DNA of 21,348 nucleotides from positions 1-21,348 of the IMG/VR virus record IMGVR_UViG_3300045541_000050. One strand, written 5' to 3'. The translations under genes and the position numbers were made by a program. Below, piece after piece: positions 1,589 to 19,270 of the stretch (its first letter is position 1; every line of letters begins with the position of its first letter). Origin of the DNA: a virus. A model generated the notes under the pieces. That model saw nothing but the letters and a program-made list of their open reading frames with translations. It ran no database searches and was not told the origin of the DNA.

Positions 1589-2557
1589 ATGCTAGGATCA
1601 TTTGCTATATTTGGCTCTAAGGGAATGACAAGAGTTCCATCCATAGCTGGATCCGCACCATCTTCTGCTATATCAGCAATTCAGTCAGCAGGACTAGTGG
1701 CTTCGTTGTCTGGTACTGTCGCAACCTCTAATAGCGGTATAGCTGGTACAGTAGCTTCCCAGTCACCATCAGCAAACTCACTGGTTGAATATGAGACAAC
1801 GGTATCTTATCAGACATATGTTTATGAAGAGCCGCCATGCACTGGAACTGGAACAATCTGGTGGGGGTATTGCGAAGGAGGAAGCTTAGTATCAGGAAGC
1901 TTTACCTGGTATTATTGCACCACAAGTTTTGAGGCAGCATTAGAGGCTGAATGGCCTGCAGCAACTCGGCCTGCAGGATTTACTGCCACAAACTCTGGGC
2001 CAATTCCATCAGATTATTGTGGACCAGCATCTTGCCTAAACACCTATTCTTTTACTTATTACGATGGTGGTTGTAATTATGCAATCTATGATTGCAACGG
2101 TGGCTATGTTGGCTCCACTAGGGTTACAACCTGCTCCTCACCAGGAACAGACTCGTCTGGTGCCACAATACCAGGATGCTCTCAGAACTGCTCTGCACCA
2201 CCAACGCTATATTATGCATCTGGATGCTGTGGATCTTCTCCAGTTACTGCAAGCAGCTATGCAAGTGCCTCGCAGGCCATAGATTATCTAGAGGAGGGCT
2301 GCCAGGTTGGTGTAACAAATGTTTCTACAAGCACAAGCGGATATCCATCGGTTTCTTGTGACTCACCAGCACCAACTCCAACATACACTTTTGTTTACGA
2401 TCTTGGAACACCAACATGTTCTGGGTCTACAGATGCCAGCGGTAGCGTATATGCAGCAGCACCAGGAAACAAAACTGTTAGTGCAGGCAATTGCGGAAGC
2501 CAGACATTCTATGCATTTACTAGCGGAACATTTTATTGGAAGTGTTGTGCTAGCTAG
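1589..2557 (+). CDS. PASTA-domain, Cys-rich phage tail protein
   Basis: 322 residues. Residues about 16-79 read as one PASTA domain: it opens with VPSIAG, has a helix containing SAISAIQSAGL, then V-A-S-Q-S-P-S-A-N-S-L-V and a final beta-strand ending in TVSYQTYVY. PASTA domains bind peptidoglycan stem peptides or muropeptides in Gram-positive kinases and penicillin-binding proteins. The remaining 240 residues contain 18 cysteines, many aromatics (YY, WYY, FTYY) and Gly/Ser/Thr turns; I recognise no family there. There is no signal peptide or lipobox. Neighbours are fibre-type genes, so it is probably a virion protein that contacts cell-wall material, with a disulfide- or metal-stabilised tip (inference). 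The gene is convergent with the lysozyme-like gene; the two stop codons share the palindrome CTAG at 2554-2557. Confidence 0.8.
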   Translation: MLGSFAIFGSKGMTRVPSIAGSAPSSAISAIQSAGLVASLSGTVATSNSGIAGTVASQSPSANSLVEYETTVSYQTYVYEEPPCTGTGTIWWGYCEGGSLVSGSFTWYYCTTSFEAALEAEWPAATRPAGFTATNSGPIPSDYCGPASCLNTYSFTYYDGGCNYAIYDCNGGYVGSTRVTTCSSPGTDSSGATIPGCSQNCSAPPTLYYASGCCGSSPVTASSYASASQAIDYLEEGCQVGVTNVSTSTSGYPSVSCDSPAPTPTYTFVYDLGTPTCSGSTDASGSVYAAAPGNKTVSAGNCGSQTFYAFTSGTFYWKCCAS

Positions 2558-3054
2558 TAGCCCAAAGATCTTTTTGCAGAATGTTCTGTGCTCCAAGAGC
2601 TCCAGTTTTTTCCACCATTAGACATCTTGTATGCAACCTGTGCATTGGTTAGGGGATTAAACAAAGCCTCGTTTGTCTCAAGGTTATACTTTTTTCTACG
2701 ATCAGGACCCATGGAGCCAGTCATGTTGATCTGAAATAGTCCGTAGCAGTTGCTAGATTTGTTTAGTGCCATGGGCCTGTTGGTTGACTCATAAAATGCG
2801 ATAGCTTTTGCCATTTTTAATCCATTGCCAGAAAAGCCTGCCTGCTCAAGAATAATGGTAAGCTGCTCATCAGATAGTTGTGTTTTTGAGGTATAAGACA
2901 TTTTAACAATCTCATAGCTGCCACGATCAAAGCTAATAGAATACTCTGGTACTAGTAGCGTTTGAAGTCCTTCGCTTGTTTCAGAAGGTGCTACATTTGC
3001 GGTAGTCAGATTAGCAATAAGTCCTACCGTTGCTGCGATTGCGTATAGTTTCAT
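2554..3054 (-). CDS. Secreted lysozyme/SLT-like peptidoglycan hydrolase
   Basis: 166 residues. The N-terminus (MKLYAIAATVGLIANLTTA) is a short basic start plus a weakly hydrophobic Ala/Gly-rich segment. It could be a Sec signal peptide cleaved near residue 20-22, or a signal-arrest-release segment. Residues about 60-166 fit a lysozyme/soluble lytic transglycosylase-like domain: AKAIAFYEST holds the likely catalytic Glu89, followed by SNCYGLFQINMTG (GLFQIN at 105-110, the typical SLT motif), a NPLTNAQVAYKMSN helix and the NWSSWST motif. The expected role is cleavage of the glycan backbone at lysis. Its ATG overlaps the TAA stop of the upstream NlpC/P60 gene (TAATG), so the pair is coupled. It is short for a two-domain endolysin and has no separate wall-binding domain. 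The family call is strong; its use at lysis rather than at entry is inferred from the export signal. Confidence 0.82.
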   Translation of the reverse strand: MKLYAIAATVGLIANLTTANVAPSETSEGLQTLLVPEYSISFDRGSYEIVKMSYTSKTQLSDEQLTIILEQAGFSGNGLKMAKAIAFYESTNRPMALNKSSNCYGLFQINMTGSMGPDRRKKYNLETNEALFNPLTNAQVAYKMSNGGKNWSSWSTEHSAKRSLGY

Positions 3055-3674
3055 TAGTTTTCAATTACCCTGACAAAAGAGATTTCGCTGTTCTTGAATG
3101 CTGGTGAGTCAAGAGAAATCTTTTCTGTCTTTGTTCCTTTTCTAAATCCAGCGTGAATAATTTTGTTGTTTCCCACATAGATTCCTACGTGGTAGTACTT
3201 CTCTGAGTTGAGGTGGCTAAAGGCAACAATGTCCCCTAGATTTGGGGTCTCTACGTGATACCCTGCAGACTTGCCCTGCTTAGATGCAGAATGCTCAATC
3301 TCAATTCCAAGGCCTTGGTAAAACCATCTGGTCATTCCAGAGCAGTCCCAGCCACTTGGGCTAGATCCACTAAAAACATACCAGGTCCTTCCGACATGTT
3401 TTTGAAGCTCAGCAACTCTGTCTTCCAGGGCTTGTCTGTTTGCAAGTCTTGCCTTGTTAGCCTCAGCTGCTTCAATCTTTAGCCTTAATGCCTCAGCAGC
3501 TTGCTGCTCTAGCATTGTCTGTGTCCTGTGTGTCTCAATAATTTGAGACATAATATTTACTTCGTAAACTGGCTTATATTCAATTGTACTTAATGATTTA
3601 TGGTCATCAGCCACGGTAGCTGCAGAACAGCCAAGTAATACTACTACCGCTCCTAGTATTGCAATCTTCTTCAA
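3054..3674 (-). CDS. NlpC/P60 endopeptidase with lipoprotein signal peptide
   Basis: I start this at TTG 3674 because a perfect AGGAGG lies 6 nt upstream. The upstream ATG at 3818 would add 48 unlikely residues that run through the promoter. From TTG the protein has 206 residues and begins MKKIAILGAVVVLLGCSA, a lipoprotein signal with lipobox LLGC and acylated Cys16. Residues about 45-95 are Glu/Ala/Lys-rich and likely a coiled coil. Residues about 95-200 are an NlpC/P60 domain: GWDCSG with nucleophile Cys111, YYHVGIYVG with His162, and KIIHAG with His174 as the third catalytic-site residue. This fold cleaves peptide bonds in peptidoglycan stems. The lipid anchor would hold the enzyme on the outer face of the membrane. 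It is probably a lysis partner of the lysozyme-like gene that follows with a TAATG overlap. A lipoprotein-anchored phage endopeptidase is uncommon. Confidence 0.85.
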   Translation of the reverse strand: MKKIAILGAVVVLLGCSAATVADDHKSLSTIEYKPVYEVNIMSQIIETHRTQTMLEQQAAEALRLKIEAAEANKARLANRQALEDRVAELQKHVGRTWYVFSGSSPSGWDCSGMTRWFYQGLGIEIEHSASKQGKSAGYHVETPNLGDIVAFSHLNSEKYYHVGIYVGNNKIIHAGFRKGTKTEKISLDSPAFKNSEISFVRVIEN

Positions 3675-3680
3675 GTTGCA

Positions 3681-3686
3681 CCTCCT
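3681..3686 (-). promoter_or_regulatory. Shine-Dalgarno AGGAGG deciding a TTG start
   Basis: On the minus strand AGGAGG lies 6 nt before TTG 3674, and the encoded peptide is a textbook lipoprotein signal. This spacing decides the start in favour of TTG. The adjacent GGTGC (3678-3682) repeats the 3' arm of the leader hairpin. Confidence 0.75.
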
Positions 3687-3691
3687 AAAGC

Positions 3692-3717
3692 AAAAAGCAC
3701 CTTGTTTAAGGGTGCTT
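3692..3717 (-). terminator. Leader hairpin with U tract, possible attenuator
   Basis: On the minus strand, AAGCACC pairs with GGTGCTT across a 9-nt loop (arms at 3711-3717 and 3695-3701). The 3' arm runs into a five-T tract ending at 3692. It lies between the predicted promoter (-10 at 3733-3738) and the ribosome-binding site of the NlpC/P60 gene, so it would act in the 5' leader. The stem is only 7 bp and the U tract is short, so it may be a weak or conditional terminator. Confidence 0.4.
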
Positions 3718-3732
3718 AGATTTGGTCTTAAT

Positions 3733-3761
3733 ATTATAGCATCGTTTGAGCCAATTGTCAT
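3733..3761 (-). promoter_or_regulatory. Promoter for the lysis-type gene pair (minus strand)
   Basis: Reading the minus strand: ATGACA (3761-3756, one mismatch to TTGACA), a 17-nt spacer ending in TGC, and TATAAT (3738-3733). This has the best -35/-10 arrangement in the window. Transcription should begin near 3726, giving a leader of about 50 nt. Its -35 overlaps the extended -10 of the opposite promoter, so occupancy of one should hinder the other. Confidence 0.65.
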
Positions 3762-3769
3762 GCTATAAT
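3761..3769 (+). promoter_or_regulatory. Extended -10 TGCTATAAT, leaderless start at 3776
   Basis: TGC plus TATAAT (3764-3769), then 6 nt to ATG 3776, and no Shine-Dalgarno sequence. The expected transcription start coincides with the A of the ATG, which predicts a leaderless mRNA. It forms a perfect 10-bp inverted repeat with the minus-strand -10 region (3733-3742 against 3760-3769, 17 nt apart). Confidence 0.65.
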
Positions 3770-3775
3770 TAAAAC

Positions 3776-4291
3776 ATGGCACAAGGAAGATCAGATGGGC
3801 TAGACCTGCCCTATCCACTAGCAGAAGACTACGTAAATGTTCATGGCGATATCCGTCAGCTAGTTGAGAAACTTGAAATTATTCTGCCACCACTTGGGGT
3901 GTCATACTTTCAGCTTCAAGTTAGCAACAATAGCGGTCAGGATATTTCTGCAGGAGACCCACTTGTTGCATCTGGATTTATGACTAAGACAAACGTTAGA
4001 AAAGCCTTGGCAACTGACACAGAACCAATCCTGGGGCTGGCAAAGACCGATATTCCAGATGAAACAGATGGCGTGATTGTTGTTGCAGGTGTTATGGACG
4101 GCATCAACACATCTGGTTTTACTACTGGAGACATCCTTTATGTTGGTGAGACTGGAGGTCTGACAGCAACACGTCCTGCAGCAGGCTCTGGGGCAGTTGG
4201 GCTAGTGGCTCATGCAGCAACAGAAGGCGTAATCATTGTTGAGGCAAAAGGAAACGGAACCTGGGGGGCACTAAAGGCTGGACTAGCCTAA
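3776..4291 (+). CDS. Phage structural protein with decoration-like beta domain
   Basis: 171 residues. After an N-terminal helix (about residues 10-40), residues about 45-171 form a beta domain of a type seen in phage structural and fibre proteins. It has N-x-S-G-x-x-I-x-A-G-x-P, a segment stating earlier values are replaced (EPILGLAKTDIPD), G-V-M-D-G-I-N-T-S-G-F-T-T-G-D, and LYVGETGGLTATRP, then V-G-L-V-x-x-A-x-x-x-G-V-I-I-V. This layout recalls small DUF2190-like or capsid-decoration modules, but I would not assign it to head or tail. There is no enzyme motif. The ATG is placed for a leaderless transcript. It is the first + strand gene after the divergent promoter, and the next gene has its own promoter. 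Confidence 0.78.
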   Translation: MAQGRSDGLDLPYPLAEDYVNVHGDIRQLVEKLEIILPPLGVSYFQLQVSNNSGQDISAGDPLVASGFMTKTNVRKALATDTEPILGLAKTDIPDETDGVIVVAGVMDGINTSGFTTGDILYVGETGGLTATRPAAGSGAVGLVAHAATEGVIIVEAKGNGTWGALKAGLA

Positions 4292-4949: not shown

Positions 4950-5273
4950 ATGGCTATTTTAACTATTGAAGAACTACTGGATAAGTTTGGCCCTGGAGAG
5001 ATTCCAAGATCAGATGACTACCAGGACCTTATTCAGACGTTGTCAGATGACAGGAACGCTGTCCACTTCTCTAGCACTCAGCCATCAGACCCATTGGCTA
5101 CTCCAGTTTGGTTTAACACATCTAGCCAGGTGCTTTCGGTATATGACTCAGAATGGAAGGCCGTAGGAATCCTTCTTGACGTATCGTCTGCTGCAAATGG
5201 AGACGTCTTGGTCTATTCATCTAGCGAATCTGCCTGGCAAAACCAGTCTACGCTAGATGGCGGCACTCCATAA
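4950..5273 (+). CDS. Small fibre-type protein ending in LDGGTP
   Basis: 107 residues. An N-terminal helix (IEELLDKFGPGEIPRSDDYQ) is followed by the shared module at about residues 43-75: TQPSDPLATPVWFNT, then LSVYDSEWKAV. The R-x-D/S-D-Y-x-D-L-I motif near the N-terminus (residues about 20-28) also appears in the next gene (PSQSDYEDLID), so the two share an N-terminal element. The protein ends in LDGGTP directly before the stop, as does the gene at 7657; the same peptide occurs internally in the 1257-residue protein. No catalytic motif is present. Probably a small virion adhesin or adaptor, read from its own leaderless promoter. Confidence 0.72.
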   Translation: MAILTIEELLDKFGPGEIPRSDDYQDLIQTLSDDRNAVHFSSTQPSDPLATPVWFNTSSQVLSVYDSEWKAVGILLDVSSAANGDVLVYSSSESAWQNQSTLDGGTP

Positions 5274-7656: not shown

Positions 7657-8043
7657 ATGAGCACAATGGACAAGGACTTCAAAGTCAAAAATGGAATCCA
7701 GGTAACTGGAGGTGGAACCTTTGGAGCACCAGTCGTAGTCGCTACACCAACGGAAGACAATCACGCAGTAACAAGGGCATACCTTAATGATGCGATTGCT
7801 ACCCCAGTTGGAGATACTCCTCCTTCAGACCCAACTAACGGAGATTTCTGGTTTGACACAGAAACCGAAAGACTGAAGGTATACTTCAATTCCGAGTGGA
7901 TTAGCCTCGCTACAAGAGGAGATCAGATTCCTGACCACATCCACGATACCACCATTGATGGTGATGGAAGAATTACAGAGATTTTCTGGGATGGCCAGTT
8001 CCCAGAATTAGCAATGCAGATTCTAGATGGTGGAACACCATAA
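7657..8043 (+). CDS. Small fibre-type protein with KDFK anchor and LDGGTP end
   Basis: 128 residues. The N-terminus MSTMDKDFKVKNGIQVTGG matches the start of the preceding fibre (KDFKIKSGLVVEG), so both may dock to the same site. Residues about 52-86 carry the shared module TPPSDPTNGDFWFDT plus ERLKVYFNSEWISL. A His/Asp-rich turn (DQIPDHIHDTTIDGDGRIT) follows at about residues 89-107 and could bind a metal. The protein ends in QILDGGTP just before the stop. It could be a competitor, chaperone or short side-fibre related to the long fibre; which one cannot be told from sequence. Confidence 0.74.
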   Translation: MSTMDKDFKVKNGIQVTGGGTFGAPVVVATPTEDNHAVTRAYLNDAIATPVGDTPPSDPTNGDFWFDTETERLKVYFNSEWISLATRGDQIPDHIHDTTIDGDGRITEIFWDGQFPELAMQILDGGTP

Positions 8044-8119: not shown

Positions 8120-10084
8120 ATGGCAACTAGAATGCAGCAACGCAGAGGAACTGCGACACAGTGGACAGCAGCAAATACAATTTTGGCAGCTGGAGAAATC
8201 GGTTTTGAGACTGATACAAATCAGTTTAAGATTGGTGACGGAACTACTGCATGGGAAGATCTTCCATACTTCAAGAACCTTGAAGACCTTGGTGCTAACC
8301 TAGATGACTATGTTTTGGTAGAGCTACTTGGCCAGCCAGAGGGTGTTGCTACACTAGACGTAACTGGAAAGCTATCTGAGGCTCAAATTCCAGATACAAT
8401 TCACGGACCAACAGGACCTACTGGACCTACTGGACCAATCGGCCCTACTGGTGCAGACGGAGAGATGGGTCCTGAAGGCCCACAGGGTGAAACAGGTGCC
8501 ACAGGACCAACAGGTGCTACAGGTGCCACAGGACCACAGGGAACAGACATTCACTTTGCAGGATCTGTTGCTGATGTGGCAAGCCTGCCATCAAGCGGTA
8601 ACGAAGTAAACGATGCTTACATTGTTGATGCCGATGGAAACCTGTATGTTTGGAATGGATCTTCATGGACTGACGCAGGTCAGATTGTTGGCCCACAGGG
8701 CGAGACTGGACCGACTGGACCAACTGGACCAGAAGGTCCTCTTGGTGGAGTATTTTATGTAAGTGCAACACAGCCATCAACCACAGTAGACGGATCTGTA
8801 TGGTTTGAAGATGGAACAGGTCTCTCATATGTTTATGTTGCAGACGAGTCATCTTGGAACCTTCTTAACATGTATGGCCCTACAGGACCACAGGGTGATA
8901 CGGGACCACAAGGATCAATTGGTCAAACTGGAGAAACAGGGCCAACTGGTCCAATTGGAGAAACTGGTCCTACAGGACCAATCGGTCCTACAGGTCCCCA
9001 GGGTGAGCAGGGAATTCAAGGTACTCAGGGTGAGCAGGGAGAAGTTGGTCCTACAGGTCCACAGGGAGATATTGGACCTACGGGCCCACAGGGAGCTCTT
9101 GGTCCAACTGGTGCAACTGGTCCTACAGGACCAATCGGCCCTACAGGACCAACTGGAGCAGATTCTACAGTAGAAGGACCTACAGGACCTACAGGAGCAA
9201 CAGGTCCACAGGGTGTTTCTGGTGCAGACTCTACTGTTCCAGGACCTACAGGTCCTACAGGCCCTACTGGACCACAGGGATCTTTTGGTGGTGCAACGTT
9301 TGACTACACATTCGATTCTGATACGAGCCACCCAGAAACTTTGGCAGAAGGTCTTTTGAGGCTAAACAATTCAGACCTGACTCTTGCTACAGAGCTTTAC
9401 ATTGACTTTTTGGATGACGCTTCGGTAAATATCTATAACTTCTTGCAGACCATTGACGACTCAACGTCTGCAATAAAGGGGTCTTTCAAGCTTTACAAGA
9501 AGTCAAACCAAGATGACTTTGTATTCTTCAACATAGTAGGAAACCACATTCACTTTACAGATCACTTTGACGTACCAGTTGCATATGTTACTGGATCGGT
9601 ATCAAGCTTTGCAGATAATGAAGACGTCCTTATTACATTTGCTAGAACTGGTGACGTGGGAGATGTTGGTCCGACAGGACCAACTGGCCCTCAAGGAGAA
9701 ACAGGACCAACTGGCCCTCAAGGAGAAACAGGTCCGACTGGGCCTACAGGACCAACTGGGGCAGATGCTCCTACGGTAGTTTCAATAGTCTCTGCAACCG
9801 ATAACTACAGTGTAACTGCAGCAGATAAGAATAAGATGATTAAGATTAATTCTTCTTCTGCAAAGACTGTTACCTTCCCAACAGAAACATCCGAACCAAC
9901 TCTTGAAGTGGGAATGACCCTTACAATTGCTCAAATGGGAGCTGGAAGACTCACAATGACTCCAGCATCTTCAGCTGTTGTATACACAACACCAGGAAAC
10001 AAGACTAGAGCACAATACTCAACTGTATCTGCACTCTACCTTGGATCTAACGAATGGCTAGTATCAGGAGATTTGGCGGTATAA
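8120..10084 (+). CDS. Collagen-like tail fibre with Mtd-type N-terminus
   Basis: 654 residues. Residues 1-55 ([15 protein letters not shown] ... [24 protein letters not shown]) match the N-terminal domain known from the BPP-1 major tropism determinant and many phage fibres. Collagen Gly-X-Y tracts lie at about residues 96-141, 191-211, 253-391 and 511-550, dominated by GPT, GPQ and GET triplets. Between them sit small globular modules, including two P-x-x-x-x-G-x-x-W copies and a beta domain (residues about 393-508). The last 105 residues match the C-terminus of the gene at 920. Prokaryotic collagen tracts form stable triple helices without hydroxyproline, so this should be a long trimeric fibre. 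Thr in the Y position is a glycan acceptor in Bacillus BclA; glycosyltransferase genes lie about 3 kb downstream. Confidence 0.88.
8405..9770 (+). repeat. Collagen-coding GGA-CCA-ACA type triplet repeats (interrupted)
   Basis: Degenerate 9-bp units (Gly-Pro-Thr and Gly-Pro-Gln codons) at about 8405-8545, 8690-8750, 8876-9290 and 9650-9770, separated by unique sequence. Both other frames stay open across parts of this stretch because of the skewed composition, producing false long frames on both strands. Confidence 0.85.
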
Positions 10085-10087
10085 CAT

Positions 10088-11143
10088 ATGTTTAGAGATA
10101 TATTCAGAGGTACACTTTCATCAGCCTTTCGTAAGGTAATTGGAACAGCAGGGTCAAATCCATTTAACGATGACTTTAATCGTGCAGACGGATCAATAAA
10201 TCCAGCTGAGGATGGAGGAGCCTGGGACTCTGTAAGGGGAACCTTCCAGATTTCTGGCAACAAGGCCTCATCTCTAACAGACTCCGACTACCCCATCGCA
10301 GCTGTAAAGTCATTTACCTCAAATGTTGATATTGACATTAAGGGCACCACTGGTATAGGTGCTGCTCTTTGGGTGACCGATTCTGGAAACTGGTGGTCTG
10401 TAGGTGCCATACAGACTTCTGAGTCTTGCAACTGTGTAGAGTACTACAACAGCTATACATATACCTATTCTTACTCATATATAGCTGGATACAATCAGGG
10501 AAACTGTATTGCAAATAACAATAGCTGTTGTGGATACTACTGCCTATACTACACAGGTGGCAACTGTGCAGGCTACACTTGTAATGCCTATAATACATCA
10601 AACTGCTGTGGCTACACCTGCTATGGTTATAATGCTGGCGGAAACTGTAAGGGAAATTATTGCTCTTGTTATAATGGTTCAAACTGTGCCAGCTCAAGCT
10701 GTTCTGCATACAACCCAATAAGCTGTGGACAGTATACCTGCTCAGACTATAGTTCTTGCAACAACTGTGCAGCATACAATACTGGAAATCCAATTTATGC
10801 AACTGCATATGCAAATGCAACTGGATATAATGGCCCCTACTACAATTGCCAGACATGCTATCCAAGTTACATCAGGGTATTCCAGTCGGCATCAAATGTT
10901 GTTACGACAATGCTAACCCAAGCTGTAAGTGCAGTTGTGCAGTCTCTAAAGGTAAAGACCGTTGGAAACCAAATTACAATTAAGGCATATTCAGATGCAA
11001 ATCAGGTTACTCAGATTGGAACAGACATAGTCTACACTGCAACTGGGGCAGCACTTGAGCCAAGATTTGGAATTACAGTTGTCCCAAGCTCTTATGGTCA
11101 AACATACGCTATTGATGAAGTCACAATTACTCCAAACTCTTAG
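10088..11143 (+). CDS. Lectin-like adhesin with Cys/Tyr/Asn repeat insertion
   Basis: 351 residues, starting 3 nt after the collagen fibre stop. Residues about 25-112 look like the first half of a concanavalin/LamG-like beta sandwich: DDFNRADGSI, W-x-x-x-R-G-T-F-x-I-S-G-N-K-A, then GIGAALWVTDSGNWWSVGA. Residues about 262-351 (S-L-K-V-K-T-V-G-N-Q-I-T-I-K-A-Y, FGITVVPSS, IDEVTI) complete it. Between them, residues 113-258 carry all 22 cysteines of the protein. The core (152-227) repeats every 13-14 residues as C-x-x-Y-N-x-x-N-C-x-x-Y-T, with Cys gaps alternating 8/9 and 5. I know no named family for this repeat. It probably forms a surface loop array held by disulfides or metal on a carbohydrate-binding tail domain (inference). 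Confidence 0.82.
   Translation: MFRDIFRGTLSSAFRKVIGTAGSNPFNDDFNRADGSINPAEDGGAWDSVRGTFQISGNKASSLTDSDYPIAAVKSFTSNVDIDIKGTTGIGAALWVTDSGNWWSVGAIQTSESCNCVEYYNSYTYTYSYSYIAGYNQGNCIANNNSCCGYYCLYYTGGNCAGYTCNAYNTSNCCGYTCYGYNAGGNCKGNYCSCYNGSNCASSSCSAYNPISCGQYTCSDYSSCNNCAAYNTGNPIYATAYANATGYNGPYYNCQTCYPSYIRVFQSASNVVTTMLTQAVSAVVQSLKVKTVGNQITIKAYSDANQVTQIGTDIVYTATGAALEPRFGITVVPSSYGQTYAIDEVTITPNS
10541..10768 (+). repeat. 39-bp imperfect tandem repeat coding C-x-x-Y-N-x-x-N-C-x-x-Y-T
   Basis: About six diverged in-frame units. Cysteine positions 152, 160, 165, 173, 178, 187, 192, 200, 205, 213, 218 and 227 show the alternating 8/9 and 5 spacing. The protein pattern is much better preserved than the DNA, which suggests selection on the Cys/Tyr framework. 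Confidence 0.8.
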
Positions 11144-11181: not shown

Positions 11182-11880
11182 ATGAAGATTTTTAAAGTGT
11201 TTGCTAGGCCTGGCCTTAGAGACTGGGGAAAGCCCCAGGCCACAAGAAACGTGGTGCCAGAGTGGTACAGACAAAGCGAAAGCTTGTATGTAAGCTCAGA
11301 TGATCCAAACAAGGAAGAGCATGCAGGTCTAAAAAAGTGCATGCCATTTATGGACACCCTTGTTTCTGGCTACGTTCTCACAATACCAGTAGACATCTAT
11401 GTGACAAAAGATGCAGATGGAAATCCAAGGTTTAGCTGGAATGGACCAGAGCTTCTGGGTGCATTTATTGACGAAAGGTCAAAAGAACTAGGAAAGATAA
11501 TGCCACGCCCAGCAGGGCATCACCCAAATCATCTAGTCTTTAGTGGTTTTTGGGGATGGAAGACACCAAGAGGTTGGTCATCTTTGGTGGTGCATCCTCT
11601 TAATAGATACGATCTACCGTTTACAATTTCCGAAGGTATCGTTGATAGCGATGGATTCAATTCTCCAGGAAATATACCATTTTTCATAAGAGAGGGGTTT
11701 GAGGGCACAATCCCAGCAGGAACTCCATTCGCTCAGATTATTCCTATCAAAAGAGCTTCCTGGCTTCTTGTAGATGATACTACTGGGATGTCAGATGTTG
11801 AAAGAATTCAGGGAACACTCGTGAGGCAACCAGAAACTCTTTATAAGAAAATTTTTTGGAGAAAGAAGGATTATAGATAA
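11182..11880 (+). CDS. Uncharacterised phage protein, DUF6065-like, copy 1
   Basis: 232 residues. Conserved landmarks shared with the gene at 12290 are V-P-E-W-Y-R (about 30), K-K-C-M-P-F-M-D-T-L (about 55), G-Y-V-L-T-I-P-V-D (about 68), WKTPRGWSSLVVHPLNR (about 128-144), G-I-V-D-S-D (about 154) and IPAGTPFAQIIPIKR (about 178-192), plus a closing K-K-D-Y-R. From memory this resembles DUF6065 and similar unnamed cyanophage and marine phage proteins of unknown function. The second half, G-I-V-D-x-D then I-x-x-G-x-P-x-x-Q-x-I-P, recalls the barrel motifs of dUTPase/dCTP deaminase. The dUTPase sugar- and base-binding residues are not clearly present, so I claim no enzyme activity. The stop overlaps the next start (TAATG). 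Role unknown. Confidence 0.72.
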   Translation: MKIFKVFARPGLRDWGKPQATRNVVPEWYRQSESLYVSSDDPNKEEHAGLKKCMPFMDTLVSGYVLTIPVDIYVTKDADGNPRFSWNGPELLGAFIDERSKELGKIMPRPAGHHPNHLVFSGFWGWKTPRGWSSLVVHPLNRYDLPFTISEGIVDSDGFNSPGNIPFFIREGFEGTIPAGTPFAQIIPIKRASWLLVDDTTGMSDVERIQGTLVRQPETLYKKIFWRKKDYR

Positions 11881-12293
11881 TGGCTAAAATAAAGAAAAAT
11901 CGTCCAGAGAAAAAGCTTGTTGTAAAAGTTCCAGGGGACATTAAGAGAATTAGCACTTTGGACATTTTAAAGATTGCAATTCTAAAAGTTTTAGATGGCA
12001 AAAAGCCAAAGAAGTCTGTAATATCACCAAACGGACTTATGCCAAATATGGATAGGATGAACGATATCTCAACACTTGCTATTATCGTTGATGGTGAGGT
12101 TGTTGATATAATGAGATCACAGCCAAGACTAACATCAATATTGCTTGCTGAGCCAAAATTTGTAAAGCTAGACCCATCTTCACAACCAGTAAGAATCGGA
12201 GATAAGTACTCTGACGGATTGTTTATATCGTCCGAAGATACCCCAGAGCTAGAAATTACTCCAAAAGAATTTAATCTAGGAGATTCAAAATGA
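11880..12293 (+). CDS. Small hypothetical protein between two paralogues
   Basis: 137 residues. It opens with a Lys-rich segment (MAKIKKNRPEKKLVVKV). The central core ISTLAIIVDGEVVDIMRSQ followed by RLTSILLAEPKFVKL (about residues 62-98) looks like strand-turn-strand-helix. Short phage proteins with an I-V-D-G-E-V-V-D-x-type core are common in environmental phages and have no assigned role. There is no signal peptide, no cysteine and no known catalytic motif. Both junctions overlap: TAATG with the gene before and ATGA with the gene after. This implies the three are made together and perhaps act as a complex. Confidence 0.7.
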   Translation: MAKIKKNRPEKKLVVKVPGDIKRISTLDILKIAILKVLDGKKPKKSVISPNGLMPNMDRMNDISTLAIIVDGEVVDIMRSQPRLTSILLAEPKFVKLDPSSQPVRIGDKYSDGLFISSEDTPELEITPKEFNLGDSK

Positions 12294-12958
12294 AAATAAG
12301 AGGAAAGAACATAACATTTCACTCTGACAAGGTAGACTTTGACGTAATGCGTCCATTTCCTGCTAGCAGATTTGTTCCAGAATGGTACAGAACAATGCCA
12401 GGTGTAATAGATAGAGTTGAGACTGTAAAAAAATGCATTCCAGTACTAGACTCACTCACCTTGGGATATATAATTCCTGTACCAGCAGATGTTTCCTATG
12501 AGCCAGATTCAAAGCAAATTATATCTAATGCATCATTTATGCTGAATAGTGACCATGTGCCAAGCCAAACTCAAGACGTTGCTTTGCCACCAGAGTTTGA
12601 TCCACAGCCACATAAGTGGATTAATTCTTGGCATGTAAAGACTCCAAAGGGTTACAGCACCCTGTTTGTGCACCCACTAAACAGGCTAGATCTTCCATTT
12701 CACTCATTTAGCGGAGTAGTAGATACCGACAAGCATCCGATAGTGATTAACTTCCCATTTGTAATACGCAAAGACTTTTCTGGTATAATACCAGCAGGGA
12801 CTCCAATGATTCAGGCTATACCGTTTAAGAGAGACACCTGGGATAGCAAGATCATTGACGAGAACAGCTCGTATTCGTATGAGTTCGGAAACGCAAATCA
12901 AGATGCACCACTAGCATGGTATAAGAGGAATGTATGGAACAAAAAGACGTATCGCTAA
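12290..12958 (+). CDS. Uncharacterised phage protein, DUF6065-like, copy 2
   Basis: 222 residues, paralogue of the gene at 11182. It keeps F-V-P-E-W-Y-R, K-K-C-I-P-V-L-D-S-L, G-Y-I-I-P-V-P-A-D-V, HVKTPKGYSTLFVHPLNRL, D-L-P-F, G-V-V-D-T-D and IIPAGTPMIQAIPFKRDTW, and ends in N-K-K-T-Y-R. The region between the second and third landmark has diverged (S-E-x-P-type linker with several Gln/Pro). Copies separated by one small gene suggest duplication and divergence, so the two may form a heteromer or recognise different ligands. The start overlaps the stop of the previous gene (ATGA). The last 25 nt overlap the start of the glycosyltransferase gene. Function is unknown; the dUTPase-like barrel idea applies equally here. 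Confidence 0.72.
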   Translation: MKIRGKNITFHSDKVDFDVMRPFPASRFVPEWYRTMPGVIDRVETVKKCIPVLDSLTLGYIIPVPADVSYEPDSKQIISNASFMLNSDHVPSQTQDVALPPEFDPQPHKWINSWHVKTPKGYSTLFVHPLNRLDLPFHSFSGVVDTDKHPIVINFPFVIRKDFSGIIPAGTPMIQAIPFKRDTWDSKIIDENSSYSYEFGNANQDAPLAWYKRNVWNKKTYR

Positions 12959-15496: not shown

Positions 15497-18400
15497 ATGT
15501 CTAGACCTTCTAATTTATACGCCGAGAAAATATTCTCCGAGCACCCCATTGCTATGTGGGCCCTTGACGAGCAGGCTGACTACGTTTCCATTATAAACGA
15601 AGACTTCAGACTGCTTAGTGACTCATCTAGCTGGACAATTACTAATGGTATCATGGAGCAAACCGCAATTGGTGGTGGACCATTACAGTCACCTTTCCCA
15701 GATAGTCACACATGCCTATCCACAACAGATCACCAATATGACAGCATCACAATTCTTAGCGACTTTGTGCCCAACATTTTTTCTGGAGGAATCCTCAGCT
15801 TTGAAGATCTAGACCACGATCTGGGGACAATGTGTGTTGGAATATACGTATACTCACAAACCGAAAATACCACAGGATATGAGATTGGGTACTCATACTT
15901 TGATTCGGTTTCTGGAGAAAATGTAGAGGTCGTTAAAAGTTTTGACATTCCGACTTCTGAAAGATGGATGCATATTTCTGCAACTTTTCCGCTTTTAGAT
16001 CAGGATGTTTCATTTAGATTGTTGTTTAGGTCAAAGTTTAGACAGTCTATTGCATCTCCTGTACCACACACGATTCTTTATAACGGTCTTACTTTTGGGC
16101 AGTGGTCAGAAGAGTTTTGTTCGGTATCACTCGGCTCCGATGTCGTAGATTTACCAGAAGAAGTAAACTTTTTGCCAGAAGGGTACAAGGGAATTGTTGG
16201 CAGATCGTACTCTAGAGAAGATATTCCAGGCTACTATCTGGTAAATGGAGCATCAATATATGCCAAGAACTCTGGGATACCGCTAGTCTATGGTGCAGAA
16301 AACTCAACTGTAATCTATGAGAATCCTTCCGAGGAAGACCAGCCATCACTAATCATTCCTGGCCAAGGATTCCTAAACAGTCTTGGAAAGTATCAGACTT
16401 CAACCATTGAAATGTGGATAAACATCAATGCATCTAGTTCACAGCTAAAAAGGATTTTTGGACCAGTATTTTCTAATGACGGGCTATATGTTGATGGCCC
16501 ATTCCTAGCATTAAAGATCGGAGACTCTTATGCGTCTCATTATGTTGGAGAATGGGCAAGGCCAATGCTGGTGCACATTAGGTACTCTTCGTCTGCCGCA
16601 AGTCTTATGGTTAATGGAGAAGAGGTGCTAAATATTGTATTTAACGAAGGCTTGACGCATTTACCAGAGCCATTCATAGAGGGCATCTCCACCGACTGGC
16701 TTGGATTTTATGGTGCAGAATCTATATCGCCATTTTTGGTTGACTGCGTTGCCATTTATGGCTACAAGGTTCCACCAGTAGTTGCAAAAAGAAGATTTAT
16801 TTATGGTCAGGGCGTAGAGTTCCCAGAAAACATTAACAACGCTTACAGCGGAACAACAACATTCTTTGATTACTCATTTTCTAAATATTCCAATAACTAC
16901 TCTTATCCAGGATCTGGAAAGTGGGCTCAGGGCGTAGCTAACAACCTTAATCTAGAGAATAACTATTTGGCAACAAGAGTATACCAAAAGCCTGCTCCAT
17001 TATTTAATAGTCTTGGTGCAGACATTTCGGATAGATGGCTTAACGACAACCTAGCTGCTCAAAATGAGTCTGTGCCATTTTTTACAATGAAGCCAAATAC
17101 CAATTGGGGCGGCGTTGATGGACATCTATACCTGGAAGACTATCAGGTCTTTGAAGATCAGATATCTGCCTTTTATGGAATATTCAAGGTCTCAGAGCTG
17201 TCTGACGACGAACAGATTTTGTTTAGAGTTAACGACAAGCAGCAGCCAAGATATTTTGAGATAGTTCTGCAAGATAATATCGTTAAGTATAGGTTTAAAG
17301 ACGGCGATGCTGCTTTGTCAACACTATATCAGGCTGAAAGCGTAATTGTTGGAGAGCAGTTTACGGTTGGAATATCCATACAAGAGTTTGTAAGATTTTT
17401 TGGCAACAACATGAGATCTTTTTTCTCTAACACTAGGCAGCTATCCTTTAGTATCGGAGGAAGCTCAGAGTATGAATCAACTTTTGCTGGAAACATTTAC
17501 GCAGTATCTTTGCTAAATTCACAAAATCTTTTATCCATACCATACATGTTTTCATCTCGTGGAATACCAGTAGACTACGAATACGGTTTTGACGAGTACG
17601 ACTCATTTGTTCTATATGATGCTGGAAACGAGTACTTTGGAAACGATGGGGAATATTGGCAGCATATTTTAGATGGAGGAACCCCAACATCATTCATAAC
17701 TGCACGAGCAATTAGCCATGTTGCCACATACACGCTAAAGGCCAAGGTAGTTTTTGGAAATTTTGATCTATGCATTGCATCAGCTTCGTCTTGGGAAGAC
17801 TACCTTCCTTTAACATCTTTTGCAAGGTATATAACAAATCAAAAGGGTAAGAGCTACTATGACCTAGACTTTATACAGTTTAACATAGACTATCCTGCAC
17901 CCAACACATTTTCTAAAGCGGAGTCTGAGCCTAGACAATGGAGCTACGGAGAGTTGTACGAAGAGTATGCTGTACCAACTAAAAAGACCTATGAGACGCT
18001 ATCTAACCATCTGTTTACTGGATATGATAGCTATGCTGACCTAGCAGAAAGATCGTCCTTTGACTATGTATACAATACGGATGGGTCAATCGTTAAAACA
18101 TATGTCATGTTTTCGTTCATATCGTCTATCTATGGAACGCTATCTGGGAAATACTCTAGAACGCAAAGCCTTCCAAAGAGTGGAATCGTGGTTCCTGGAG
18201 AAGACTGGTTAACTACCAGGTATGAAGTGGTTGACAATTCAATCATCTATCCACCAGCAGGAATAGATGTCAATCAAATGGTTATGACAACTCAGGTAGA
18301 GATTGTCAATCCAGACACAGACGTCTACCCAGTTTCAATAAGAACAATCCAGTACTCCCCACAGTCTCTTGACAGATCTTCTCCAACAAAGGTGGGTACG

Positions 18401-19270
18401 AGATTTGGTGTAGACGTGTCTCCATATACTCAAAATGGTTTTTACATGGACTATTCAGCAAATAATCCGTTTAGTGTATACAAGGGTAGCACACCATATC
18501 TTTACAATACTAGATATAGTGGTATTCAGCCAAGAGGAGCGTTTTCACCACTAATAAATCGTGGAGTCTCGATTCCCGTCAATCCAGAGAAAACAAGAAA
18601 CTACGAGATTATTGCTATGCAAATTTCTCTTAGGTATGACGAAGACTTCTTCCCAGTGTCTCCAGTGCAGATTTTTGAGGTGCAGGGCAGAAGGGATCAT
18701 ATAAAGTTTTTTCTTGTGTCAACAAGTCCAAACGGAAAACGTGCAAAGATTTACGCAGTAAACGCCAAGACTGGCCAGCTTGATGCGAATGTTGGACTCT
18801 ATATTAATGGCAAGATAACGAAGGATGCAACCCTTACGGTCAAGGAGTGGGCAACTCTAGGCATTAGTTTTTCAAAGATACTGGACGTATCTTTGACCGC
18901 AGGAGCCATTAGAATAAATGGTCCAATTCTTGCAAACAATATTTCATATTATCAATCTACTAGCCTTGAAGAGCGTCAAGATACCCAGGAAAGAAACTGG
19001 GAGGATGTGTTGGTGAGCGGAAACATAGATCTAGAGTGGGACTTTTGGGATTCCTTTATCTGGAATGATGTTTTAATTCTTACCTCAACATCTCTATTCG
19101 GAGTTTCGCCAGTAGAGATTTATAAGTCGTTCACTGGAACAAATAGGATAGTAATTGATGATTACTCGCCAACAGCCACAAGCCAGCCAGACAAGATTGT
19201 GTTCAAAGATTATCAGTACTCCATCTATTCTGATATTTCGTGGTATAGCACTACGAGGGCAGCCCTATAA
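15497..19270 (+). CDS. Giant LamG-containing tail/adhesin protein, 1257 residues
   Basis: Starts with EHPIAMWALDEQADY (residues about 15-29), a segment of a type found at the N-terminus of large phage tail proteins. Residues about 45-215 form a first beta sandwich. Residues about 275-425 read as a LamG/concanavalin-like lectin domain: QTSTIEMWININASS, FLALKIGD, MLVHIRYSSSAASLMVNGE. A second LamG-like block lies near residues 520-690 (DNIVKYRFKDG, SFSIGGSSEYES). Residues 725-730 carry the LDGGTP peptide also seen at two other C-termini. The rest is beta-rich and aromatic, with almost no cysteine. No hydrolase motif was recognised. It is probably a baseplate or tail-tip adhesin binding host glycans. 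It is by far the longest gene here, but lacks tape-measure features (few helices, no repeats). Confidence 0.8.
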   Translation: MSRPSNLYAEKIFSEHPIAMWALDEQADYVSIINEDFRLLSDSSSWTITNGIMEQTAIGGGPLQSPFPDSHTCLSTTDHQYDSITILSDFVPNIFSGGILSFEDLDHDLGTMCVGIYVYSQTENTTGYEIGYSYFDSVSGENVEVVKSFDIPTSERWMHISATFPLLDQDVSFRLLFRSKFRQSIASPVPHTILYNGLTFGQWSEEFCSVSLGSDVVDLPEEVNFLPEGYKGIVGRSYSREDIPGYYLVNGASIYAKNSGIPLVYGAENSTVIYENPSEEDQPSLIIPGQGFLNSLGKYQTSTIEMWININASSSQLKRIFGPVFSNDGLYVDGPFLALKIGDSYASHYVGEWARPMLVHIRYSSSAASLMVNGEEVLNIVFNEGLTHLPEPFIEGISTDWLGFYGAESISPFLVDCVAIYGYKVPPVVAKRRFIYGQGVEFPENINNAYSGTTTFFDYSFSKYSNNYSYPGSGKWAQGVANNLNLENNYLATRVYQKPAPLFNSLGADISDRWLNDNLAAQNESVPFFTMKPNTNWGGVDGHLYLEDYQVFEDQISAFYGIFKVSELSDDEQILFRVNDKQQPRYFEIVLQDNIVKYRFKDGDAALSTLYQAESVIVGEQFTVGISIQEFVRFFGNNMRSFFSNTRQLSFSIGGSSEYESTFAGNIYAVSLLNSQNLLSIPYMFSSRGIPVDYEYGFDEYDSFVLYDAGNEYFGNDGEYWQHILDGGTPTSFITARAISHVATYTLKAKVVFGNFDLCIASASSWEDYLPLTSFARYITNQKGKSYYDLDFIQFNIDYPAPNTFSKAESEPRQWSYGELYEEYAVPTKKTYETLSNHLFTGYDSYADLAERSSFDYVYNTDGSIVKTYVMFSFISSIYGTLSGKYSRTQSLPKSGIVVPGEDWLTTRYEVVDNSIIYPPAGIDVNQMVMTTQVEIVNPDTDVYPVSIRTIQYSPQSLDRSSPTKVGTRFGVDVSPYTQNGFYMDYSANNPFSVYKGSTPYLYNTRYSGIQPRGAFSPLINRGVSIPVNPEKTRNYEIIAMQISLRYDEDFFPVSPVQIFEVQGRRDHIKFFLVSTSPNGKRAKIYAVNAKTGQLDANVGLYINGKITKDATLTVKEWATLGISFSKILDVSLTAGAIRINGPILANNISYYQSTSLEERQDTQERNWEDVLVSGNIDLEWDFWDSFIWNDVLILTSTSLFGVSPVEIYKSFTGTNRIVIDDYSPTATSQPDKIVFKDYQYSIYSDISWYSTTRAAL

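Follow-up and report, generated by a model that had tools for sequence, protein, structure and literature searches.

The window analysed here, a 21,348-base virus fragment (IMG/VR record IMGVR_UViG_3300045541_000050), encodes a 351-residue protein that belongs to a real, unnamed family of adhesins among the concanavalin (ConA)-like receptor-binding proteins of actinophages, with a very unusual arm. The protein carries a long cysteine-rich insert, and the organising rule of the insert cysteines is mirror (antiparallel) symmetry, not the 13-residue repeat that had been noticed in them originally. We consider it probable that the protein is a siphophage-fibre tip adhesin, in which a long two-strand arm stapled by nested cross-strand disulfides stands on a ConA-like sandwich. 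The features referred to below are the following.

8120..10084, + strand: upstream tail fibre with an Mtd_N-type N-terminus and collagen-like repeats (PF18454, PF01391, PHROG tail fibre)
10088..11143, + strand: adhesin gene, 351 amino acids, made up of half-sandwich, Cys-rich insert and half-sandwich (ORF, IMG/VR relatives, purifying selection)
10151..10423, + strand: residues 22-112, first half of the ConA-like sandwich (AlphaFold, mean block pLDDT 77-97)
10424..10861, + strand: residues 113-258, Cys/Tyr/Asn insert with 22 Cys (Cys count; low pLDDT at 124-245)
10427..10621, + strand: proposed ascending arm, Cys114 to Cys178 (mirror Cys pairing, compensated indels)
10622..10645, + strand: proposed hairpin tip, residues 179-186, YGYNAGGN (Cys pairing, indels)
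10646..10858, + strand: proposed descending arm, Cys187 to Cys257 (mirror pairs, AlphaFold strand sums)
10862..11140, + strand: residues 259-351, second half of the sandwich (AlphaFold, mean block pLDDT 77-98)
11182..11880, + strand: conserved downstream neighbour, function unknown (phrog_7084, synteny)

RESULTS

The adhesin gene and its concanavalin-like base

Measured against the nearest relative, dN/dS is 0.05 for the flanks and 0.09 for the insert, which indicates that the adhesin gene is real. All 22 cysteines lie within residues 114-257 and the flanks are free of cysteine, as the original prediction had stated. In the AlphaFold model, residues 22-123 and 246-351 form one sandwich, mostly at pLDDT >90, and the insert sits between its adjacent antiparallel strands 112-119 and 251-257; insert residues 124-245 are unresolved in the model (pLDDT about 28). 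Structure comparison matched the sandwich to the C-terminal domain of gp20, the central fibre of mycobacteriophage Douge (Z 17.1, 165 residues aligned, 2.6 A), to CBM66 (Z 16.2) and to the receptor-binding domain of TM4 gp23 (Z 15.4, 170 residues, 2.9 A). The model and the structure comparison agree with two earlier suggestions, that the flanks are the halves of a single concanavalin/LamG-like sandwich and that the Cys region is an insertion in the sandwich of a tail adhesin. The earlier remark that no named family was known to have this repeat was also borne out: the whole protein had no match in Pfam or PHROGs, and the insert had no sequence match in the PDB up to E 10.

Two scans of IMG/VR yielded 66 loci with relatives, and two later scans added others; the family was thus found in dozens of contigs from uncultured phages, most of which encode WhiB. 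Among cultured phages (50,697 phage records), tblastn detected no relative with the full-length protein, the two flanks joined together or one relative as query, and no paper on the family was found in the open-access literature text. In the family alignment the flanks are conserved, with an invariant WVTDSGNW-type strand in the first half-sandwich, whereas the inserts cannot be aligned between clades. Some phages carry two diverged adhesin copies (L005:6004-7050 and L005:11385-12497; also L056), and two distant members (L119:2438-4162 and L124:2423-4120) have a long Gly-rich C-terminal domain past the sandwich, recalling gp38-type adhesins.

Number and spacing of the cysteines

The insert (residues 113-258) contains 22 Cys, 29 Tyr and 24 Asn, no His and hardly any charged residue. 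Autocorrelation of the cysteines peaks at lag 13, where 9 pairs are found and shuffles give 2.9; p is 0.0008 for this single lag and about 0.02 after correction for 29 lags. The successive Cys-Cys gaps are 2,24,7,1,4,8,5,8,1,4,9,5,2,6,5,8,5,6,3,27,3. An alternation of gaps of 8 or 9 with gaps of 5, as had been predicted, is present in the middle of the insert if each CC or CxC doublet is treated as a single position, and breaks down elsewhere. The 13-residue unit C-x-x-Y-N-x-x-N-C-x-x-Y-T, which had been put forward as the defining feature, proved to be local to the window's own clade. Relatives are built from single-Cys heptads (CNAASYP), pentads (CTGYG), units of 9-11 residues or units with no Cys, and their cysteines are spaced by 5, 7, 8, 9, 10 or 11.

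Among the Cys-containing members at <95% identity (n=70), 68 have an even number of insert cysteines, in a range of 4-50. The two odd members (L129 and L134) become even once one Cys in a C-terminal sandwich strand is set aside, and the other apparent odd counts (L061, L043) reflect N-terminal extensions arising from the choice of start. As 60-77%, not 50%, of the other phage proteins containing 4 or more Cys have even counts, parity alone is supportive and not decisive. The insert count is not a multiple of 4 in 39 of the 70 members, with values such as 10, 14, 18, 22, 26, 30, 42 and 50.

Mirror order, paired gains and matched indels

The k-th Cys from the start of the insert was paired with the k-th from its end, and the position sums of the pairs were compared. 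In the window the pairs are, from the tip outward, 178/187, 174/192, 173/194, 165/200, 160/205 and 152/213, and then towards the base 148/218, 147/224, 140/227, 116/254 and 114/257. Their sums fall between 365 and 371, with 365 occurring four times. L043 has seven successive pairs with a sum of exactly 341, and L005 has four with 357 and a near-palindromic series of gaps (2,15,22,5,8,5,8,[14],9,5,8,5,27,14,3). In L040, whose gaps are likewise near-palindromic, each arm includes a Cys-free stretch of 48 residues.

Mirror order was tested in 32 representatives at <60% identity by two statistics, which were applied to the same data and are not independent. Permutation p-values for palindromic gaps, combined by Fisher's method, gave p = 1.4e-18. 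A stricter cumulative mirror statistic gave p = 4.5e-11 and was individually <0.05 in 12 of the 32; the single proteins for which it was not significant include L006, L008, L010 and L043. The distant members L113, L121, L135, L137 and L149-L153 are even but not palindromic. Inverted repeats in the DNA were considered as a cause of the palindromes and rejected, only one 15-nt palindrome being present, which does not explain them.

Cysteines gained between relatives usually come as one pair at mirror positions. Examples are 168+221 in L038 (sum 389 vs 390), 149+167 in L134 (316/316), 163+287 in L092 (450/450), 169+283 in L023 (452/451) and 151+273 in L034 (424/423). Ten paired gains or losses at mirror positions gave p = 4.7e-7, or 2e-5 when six awkward cases were included. 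Between L058 and L062 five Cys were added in each arm, and adjacent gained pairs were seen only in the distant L145. Insertions and deletions are also matched between the arms: +12/+12 in L038, -9/-9 and -4/-4 in L007, and -22/-25 and +10/+11 in L028. The arm-to-arm indel correlation is r = 0.92 over 17 pairs, not all of them independent, and the lengths of the ascending and descending arms correlate with r = 0.96. The inserts of the window and L001 differ in length by 8 residues, of which 7 are at the tip. Paired cysteine gains together with matched indels are to a protein what compensatory changes are to an RNA stem. The descending arm exceeds the ascending arm in length by about 8% in most members, in proportion to arm length; this excess might represent regular bulges or a coiled ribbon.

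Only the cysteines and the indels show mirror order. No mirror signal was found in aromatic, Gly, Asn or small residues, nor was there a general two-residue alternation of aromatics, the signature of a strand; a plain flat beta-ribbon is therefore not proven. In the clade with 40-50 Cys (L058, L062 and relatives) two registers are interleaved exactly 5 residues apart (424/419; 468/463), and a flat two-strand ribbon therefore cannot fully fit this clade. L038 contains a striking stretch with Tyr at every second position, opposite a stretch with Ala at every second position.

Predicted hairpin

The mirror rule was derived before the AlphaFold model of L058, a relative with 40 Cys, was inspected. 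In the best model of L058, strands 138-209 and 214-284 form a single giant hairpin with i+j = 422-423, and the first and last cysteines (107+316 = 423) are in the same register. The best of the five models scores 67.7 and the others 49-57, and the pLDDT of the hairpin is about 55-75. As confidence is moderate and the hairpin belongs to the best of five only, the model is support for the predicted geometry and not proof of it. In the model of the window protein, strands 112-119/251-257 and 125-130/237-242 pair with sums of 367-370. Among the matches listed for the L058 model there were sandwiches and no long ribbon, a result that does not show such a match to be absent.

Variation and exchange of inserts

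Between L063 and L065 all 50 of 50 Cys are kept, while 65 of the 146 other non-aromatic insert positions (about 45%) differ. For L050 and L051, dN/dS is about 1.3 for the insert against 0.12 for the flanks. L012 and L041 have near-identical inserts on diverged flanks (dS 0.04 in the insert vs 0.41 in the flanks), and the opposite holds for L012 and L039 (0.70 vs 0.12). As judged by comparison of sequences, inserts are exchanged between phage lineages. Such exchange is typical of modules that determine receptor specificity.

DGR hypermutation, which the Asn/Tyr/Cys/Ser/Gly composition had brought to mind, was considered and rejected, as the substitutions are not specific to adenine and also affect synonymous sites. 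Between L050 and L051 all four bases alike undergo change (for example GTT>ACT, AGC>GGA, CCA>GCA), and no match to the reverse transcriptase RVT_1 was found in 15 related contigs of 68-138 kb.

Four members without cysteine (L048, L055, L056 and L060) have their insert at the same site and keep the Tyr/Thr/Ser repeats, so the arm may exist without disulfides. One of them, L060, carries YTSNVP hexads. L024 (6450-6504) and L025 (6456-6510) have a common stop and frame change inside the insert, representing either a broken gene or an assembly artefact common to both.

Gene neighbourhood and host

The gene order is the same in nearly all relatives: a fibre gene with the C-terminal domain found in the fibre at 8120..10084, then the adhesin gene, then a phrog_7084 gene. 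The gap between fibre and adhesin is 6 bases in the window (strict coordinates) and 2-31 bases in most relatives. The fibre is likely to be the attachment partner of the adhesin. Downstream, the phrog_7084 gene (11182-11880) and 12290-12958 are paralogues placed around a small ORF, and form the constant family downstream of the adhesin.

A second Cys-rich tail protein, with a PASTA domain and 18 Cys, is encoded at 1589-2557 (+ strand). It comes after a fibre gene (920-1579) with a C-terminal domain of the kind seen in 8120-10084. Three relatives were found (L068-L070), which have 10 Cys and match it only over its first 139 residues; these proteins are even, modular and Cys-rich, and by eye have no mirror order. 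The fibre cluster is interrupted by two cell-wall hydrolase-like genes on the minus strand (2554-3818), one transglycosylase-like and the other NlpC/P60-like. The motif LDGGTP forms the C-terminal end of two small proteins (4950-5273 and 7657-8043) and is internal in a 1257-residue protein (15497-19270); it is possibly a shared attachment or processing motif.

The portal protein is 47% identical to those of Streptomyces phages such as Daubenski, and the glycosyltransferase is 64% identical to that of the lake Actinomycetia phage DSL-LC01. WhiB, a marker of actinophages (PMC6802176), is encoded in 12 of 15 longer contigs carrying adhesin relatives. These identities, together with the occurrence of WhiB, point to an aquatic actinobacterium as the most likely host.

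DISCUSSION

A proposed stapled two-strand arm and its alternatives

We propose that one strand-to-strand hairpin of a ConA-like sandwich, of the type found in CBM66 and the Douge C-terminal domain, has been lengthened into an antiparallel two-strand arm. Each strand would comprise about 70 residues in the window, some 20 nm when fully extended, and about 25-135 in relatives. The disulfides would be nested, joining the k-th Cys from the start to the k-th from the end, which would give 11 in the window and up to 25 in relatives. This ladder of cysteines would hold the register, and the arm and tip would be the likely variable contact surface, since non-Cys positions vary fast and whole inserts are swapped between phages. 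The likeness of the base to glycan-binding tail domains of actinophages, the hypervariable arm and the exchange of inserts suggest a host-binding protein at the tip of the fibre, with putative glycan or receptor binding.

Oxidation would take place outside the reducing cytoplasm, either following lysis or, in oxic water, on the virion. The original prediction had raised metal binding, late disulfide formation outside the cell and a covalent lattice as options for so dense an array of cysteines; of the three, disulfides that form late or outside the cell are the best. Thioredoxin is encoded in 5 of 15 related contigs and says little either way on oxidation.

Nested pairing could also arise between two or three chains, the ascending arm of one copy zipping up with the descending arm of another in a swapped dimer or trimer to give an inter-chain covalent spike or lattice. 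Mirror statistics cannot separate pairing within a chain from pairing between chains, phage fibres are usually trimers, and the interleaved pair of registers in the clade with 40-50 Cys would be easier to accommodate with more than two strands. However, in the AlphaFold models the points at which the insert departs from the sandwich and returns to it are on neighbouring antiparallel strands, so a hairpin within one chain is the simplest closure, and the tip is short, with a 9-residue Cys-Cys spacing in the window. We regard pairing between chains as unlikely.

A disulfide-filled beta-solenoid of the Tenebrio antifreeze type, with a coil of 12-14 residues per repeat and a bond within each, was our first working idea, taken from the 13-residue Cys period of the window; the heptads in L039 and the small polar composition would also suit it. 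It was dropped when the cysteines gained together in the window's clade and nearer relatives proved to be distant from one another and mirror-placed, not neighbours. With indels compensated across the two halves, spacing that differs freely among relatives and a hairpin in the L058 model, a solenoid now seems very improbable.

Little more can be said for a disordered low-complexity linker whose even, palindromic cysteines come from repeat duplication and not from folding. The low pLDDT of the window's model and the repetitive, fast-evolving sequence are what such a linker would show, but direct duplication yields translational and not mirror order, and the DNA holds no inverted repeat that would explain a palindrome. 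Single-Cys units are even in number as well, and the cysteines are invariant while the rest changes, all of which leaves this explanation with very little credibility. A zinc or iron-sulfur array on a tail protein, which would draw on the many CxC, CxxC and CC motifs and on assembly in a reducing cytoplasm, is the least credible of all, given counts that are often not multiples of 4, the lack of accompanying His/Asp ligands in the window insert, the mirror pairing of the cysteines and the Cys-free members that keep the same Tyr/Thr/Ser repeats.

Significance of the proposed arm

If the two-strand arm is stapled as proposed, it would be a single loop that has grown from a lectin sandwich and that evolves through paired changes preserving the register. 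That it amounts to a novel architecture, a covalent ladder with a ribbon of as many as about 135 residues in each arm and up to about 25 nested disulfides that serves phages of abundant aquatic Actinobacteria as a diversifiable host probe, is a suggestion we make tentatively. The arm itself stands a fair chance of being a new structural class; no description of a disulfide-stapled hairpin arm was found among phage host-recognition proteins in open-access text. Such a ladder, if true, would be among the longest disulfide-stapled hairpins known to us, would explain how a small-residue, Tyr-rich arm keeps its shape without a core, and would be a natural scaffold comparable to the ultralong antibody loops of cows.

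Aquatic Actinobacteria rank with the most abundant bacteria of fresh water, and only a very small number of their phages have been cultured. A fixed lectin-type base with a swappable hypervariable arm is a candidate for the host-recognition answer of aquatic actinophages, and one that is readable from sequence alone. The test by paired gains and compensated indels is applicable to other Cys-rich repeat proteins that are beyond the reach of structure prediction.

Comparison with known systems

The closest structural likeness is to the Douge gp20 C-terminal domain and the TM4 gp23 domain, which have the same sandwich and also belong to tail proteins of actinobacterial phages (PMC13033339). Domains of the Douge central fibre (CFP) bind to the surface of mycobacteria and to glycan fragments of the cell wall (PMC13033339). 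Identity to the Douge and TM4 domains is only about 14%, however, and the matched domains lack the long Cys-rich insert; they are fused into a large fibre, whereas the window adhesin is a small separate gene after the fibre.

Tentaclins and Mtd are likewise phage lectin-like receptor-binding proteins with a variable beta-hairpin (PMC10743442). They have a C-type lectin fold, a short hairpin and retroelement mutagenesis, in contrast to the ConA-like fold and very long hairpin proposed for the window protein.

In the bovine ultralong CDR-H3, as proposed here, a loop of a beta-sandwich has grown into an antiparallel stalk with paired, variable cysteines, and some of these are nested, as in BOV-4 [1-6,2-5,3-4] (PMC6440498). 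The bovine protein is unrelated, and its loop is 52-63 residues long with 4-8 Cys, whereas the window insert has about 145 residues and 22 Cys; the bovine cysteines lie in a terminal knob, those of the window along both arms. In theta-defensins, antiparallel strands are joined by successive cross-strand disulfides, as proposed for the arm. Their cystine ladder (PMC13408038) serves as a comparison system, although a theta-defensin is a cyclic peptide with three bonds, and the window arm is inserted in a large protein and has 11 proposed bonds (up to 25 in relatives).

The gp38 adhesins of T-even phages (T2, S16 and PP01) are also encoded by a separate gene right after the fibre gene and combine a conserved attachment part with a modular hypervariable part (PMC12892980). 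The window protein differs from them in having a ConA-like sandwich and no Gly-rich domain, which in this family is found only in L119 and L124. In gp38, polyglycine helices and variable loops are used. By analogy, the adhesin would work like CDR-H3 stalks, theta-defensin ladders and gp38, while being a member of none of these groups.
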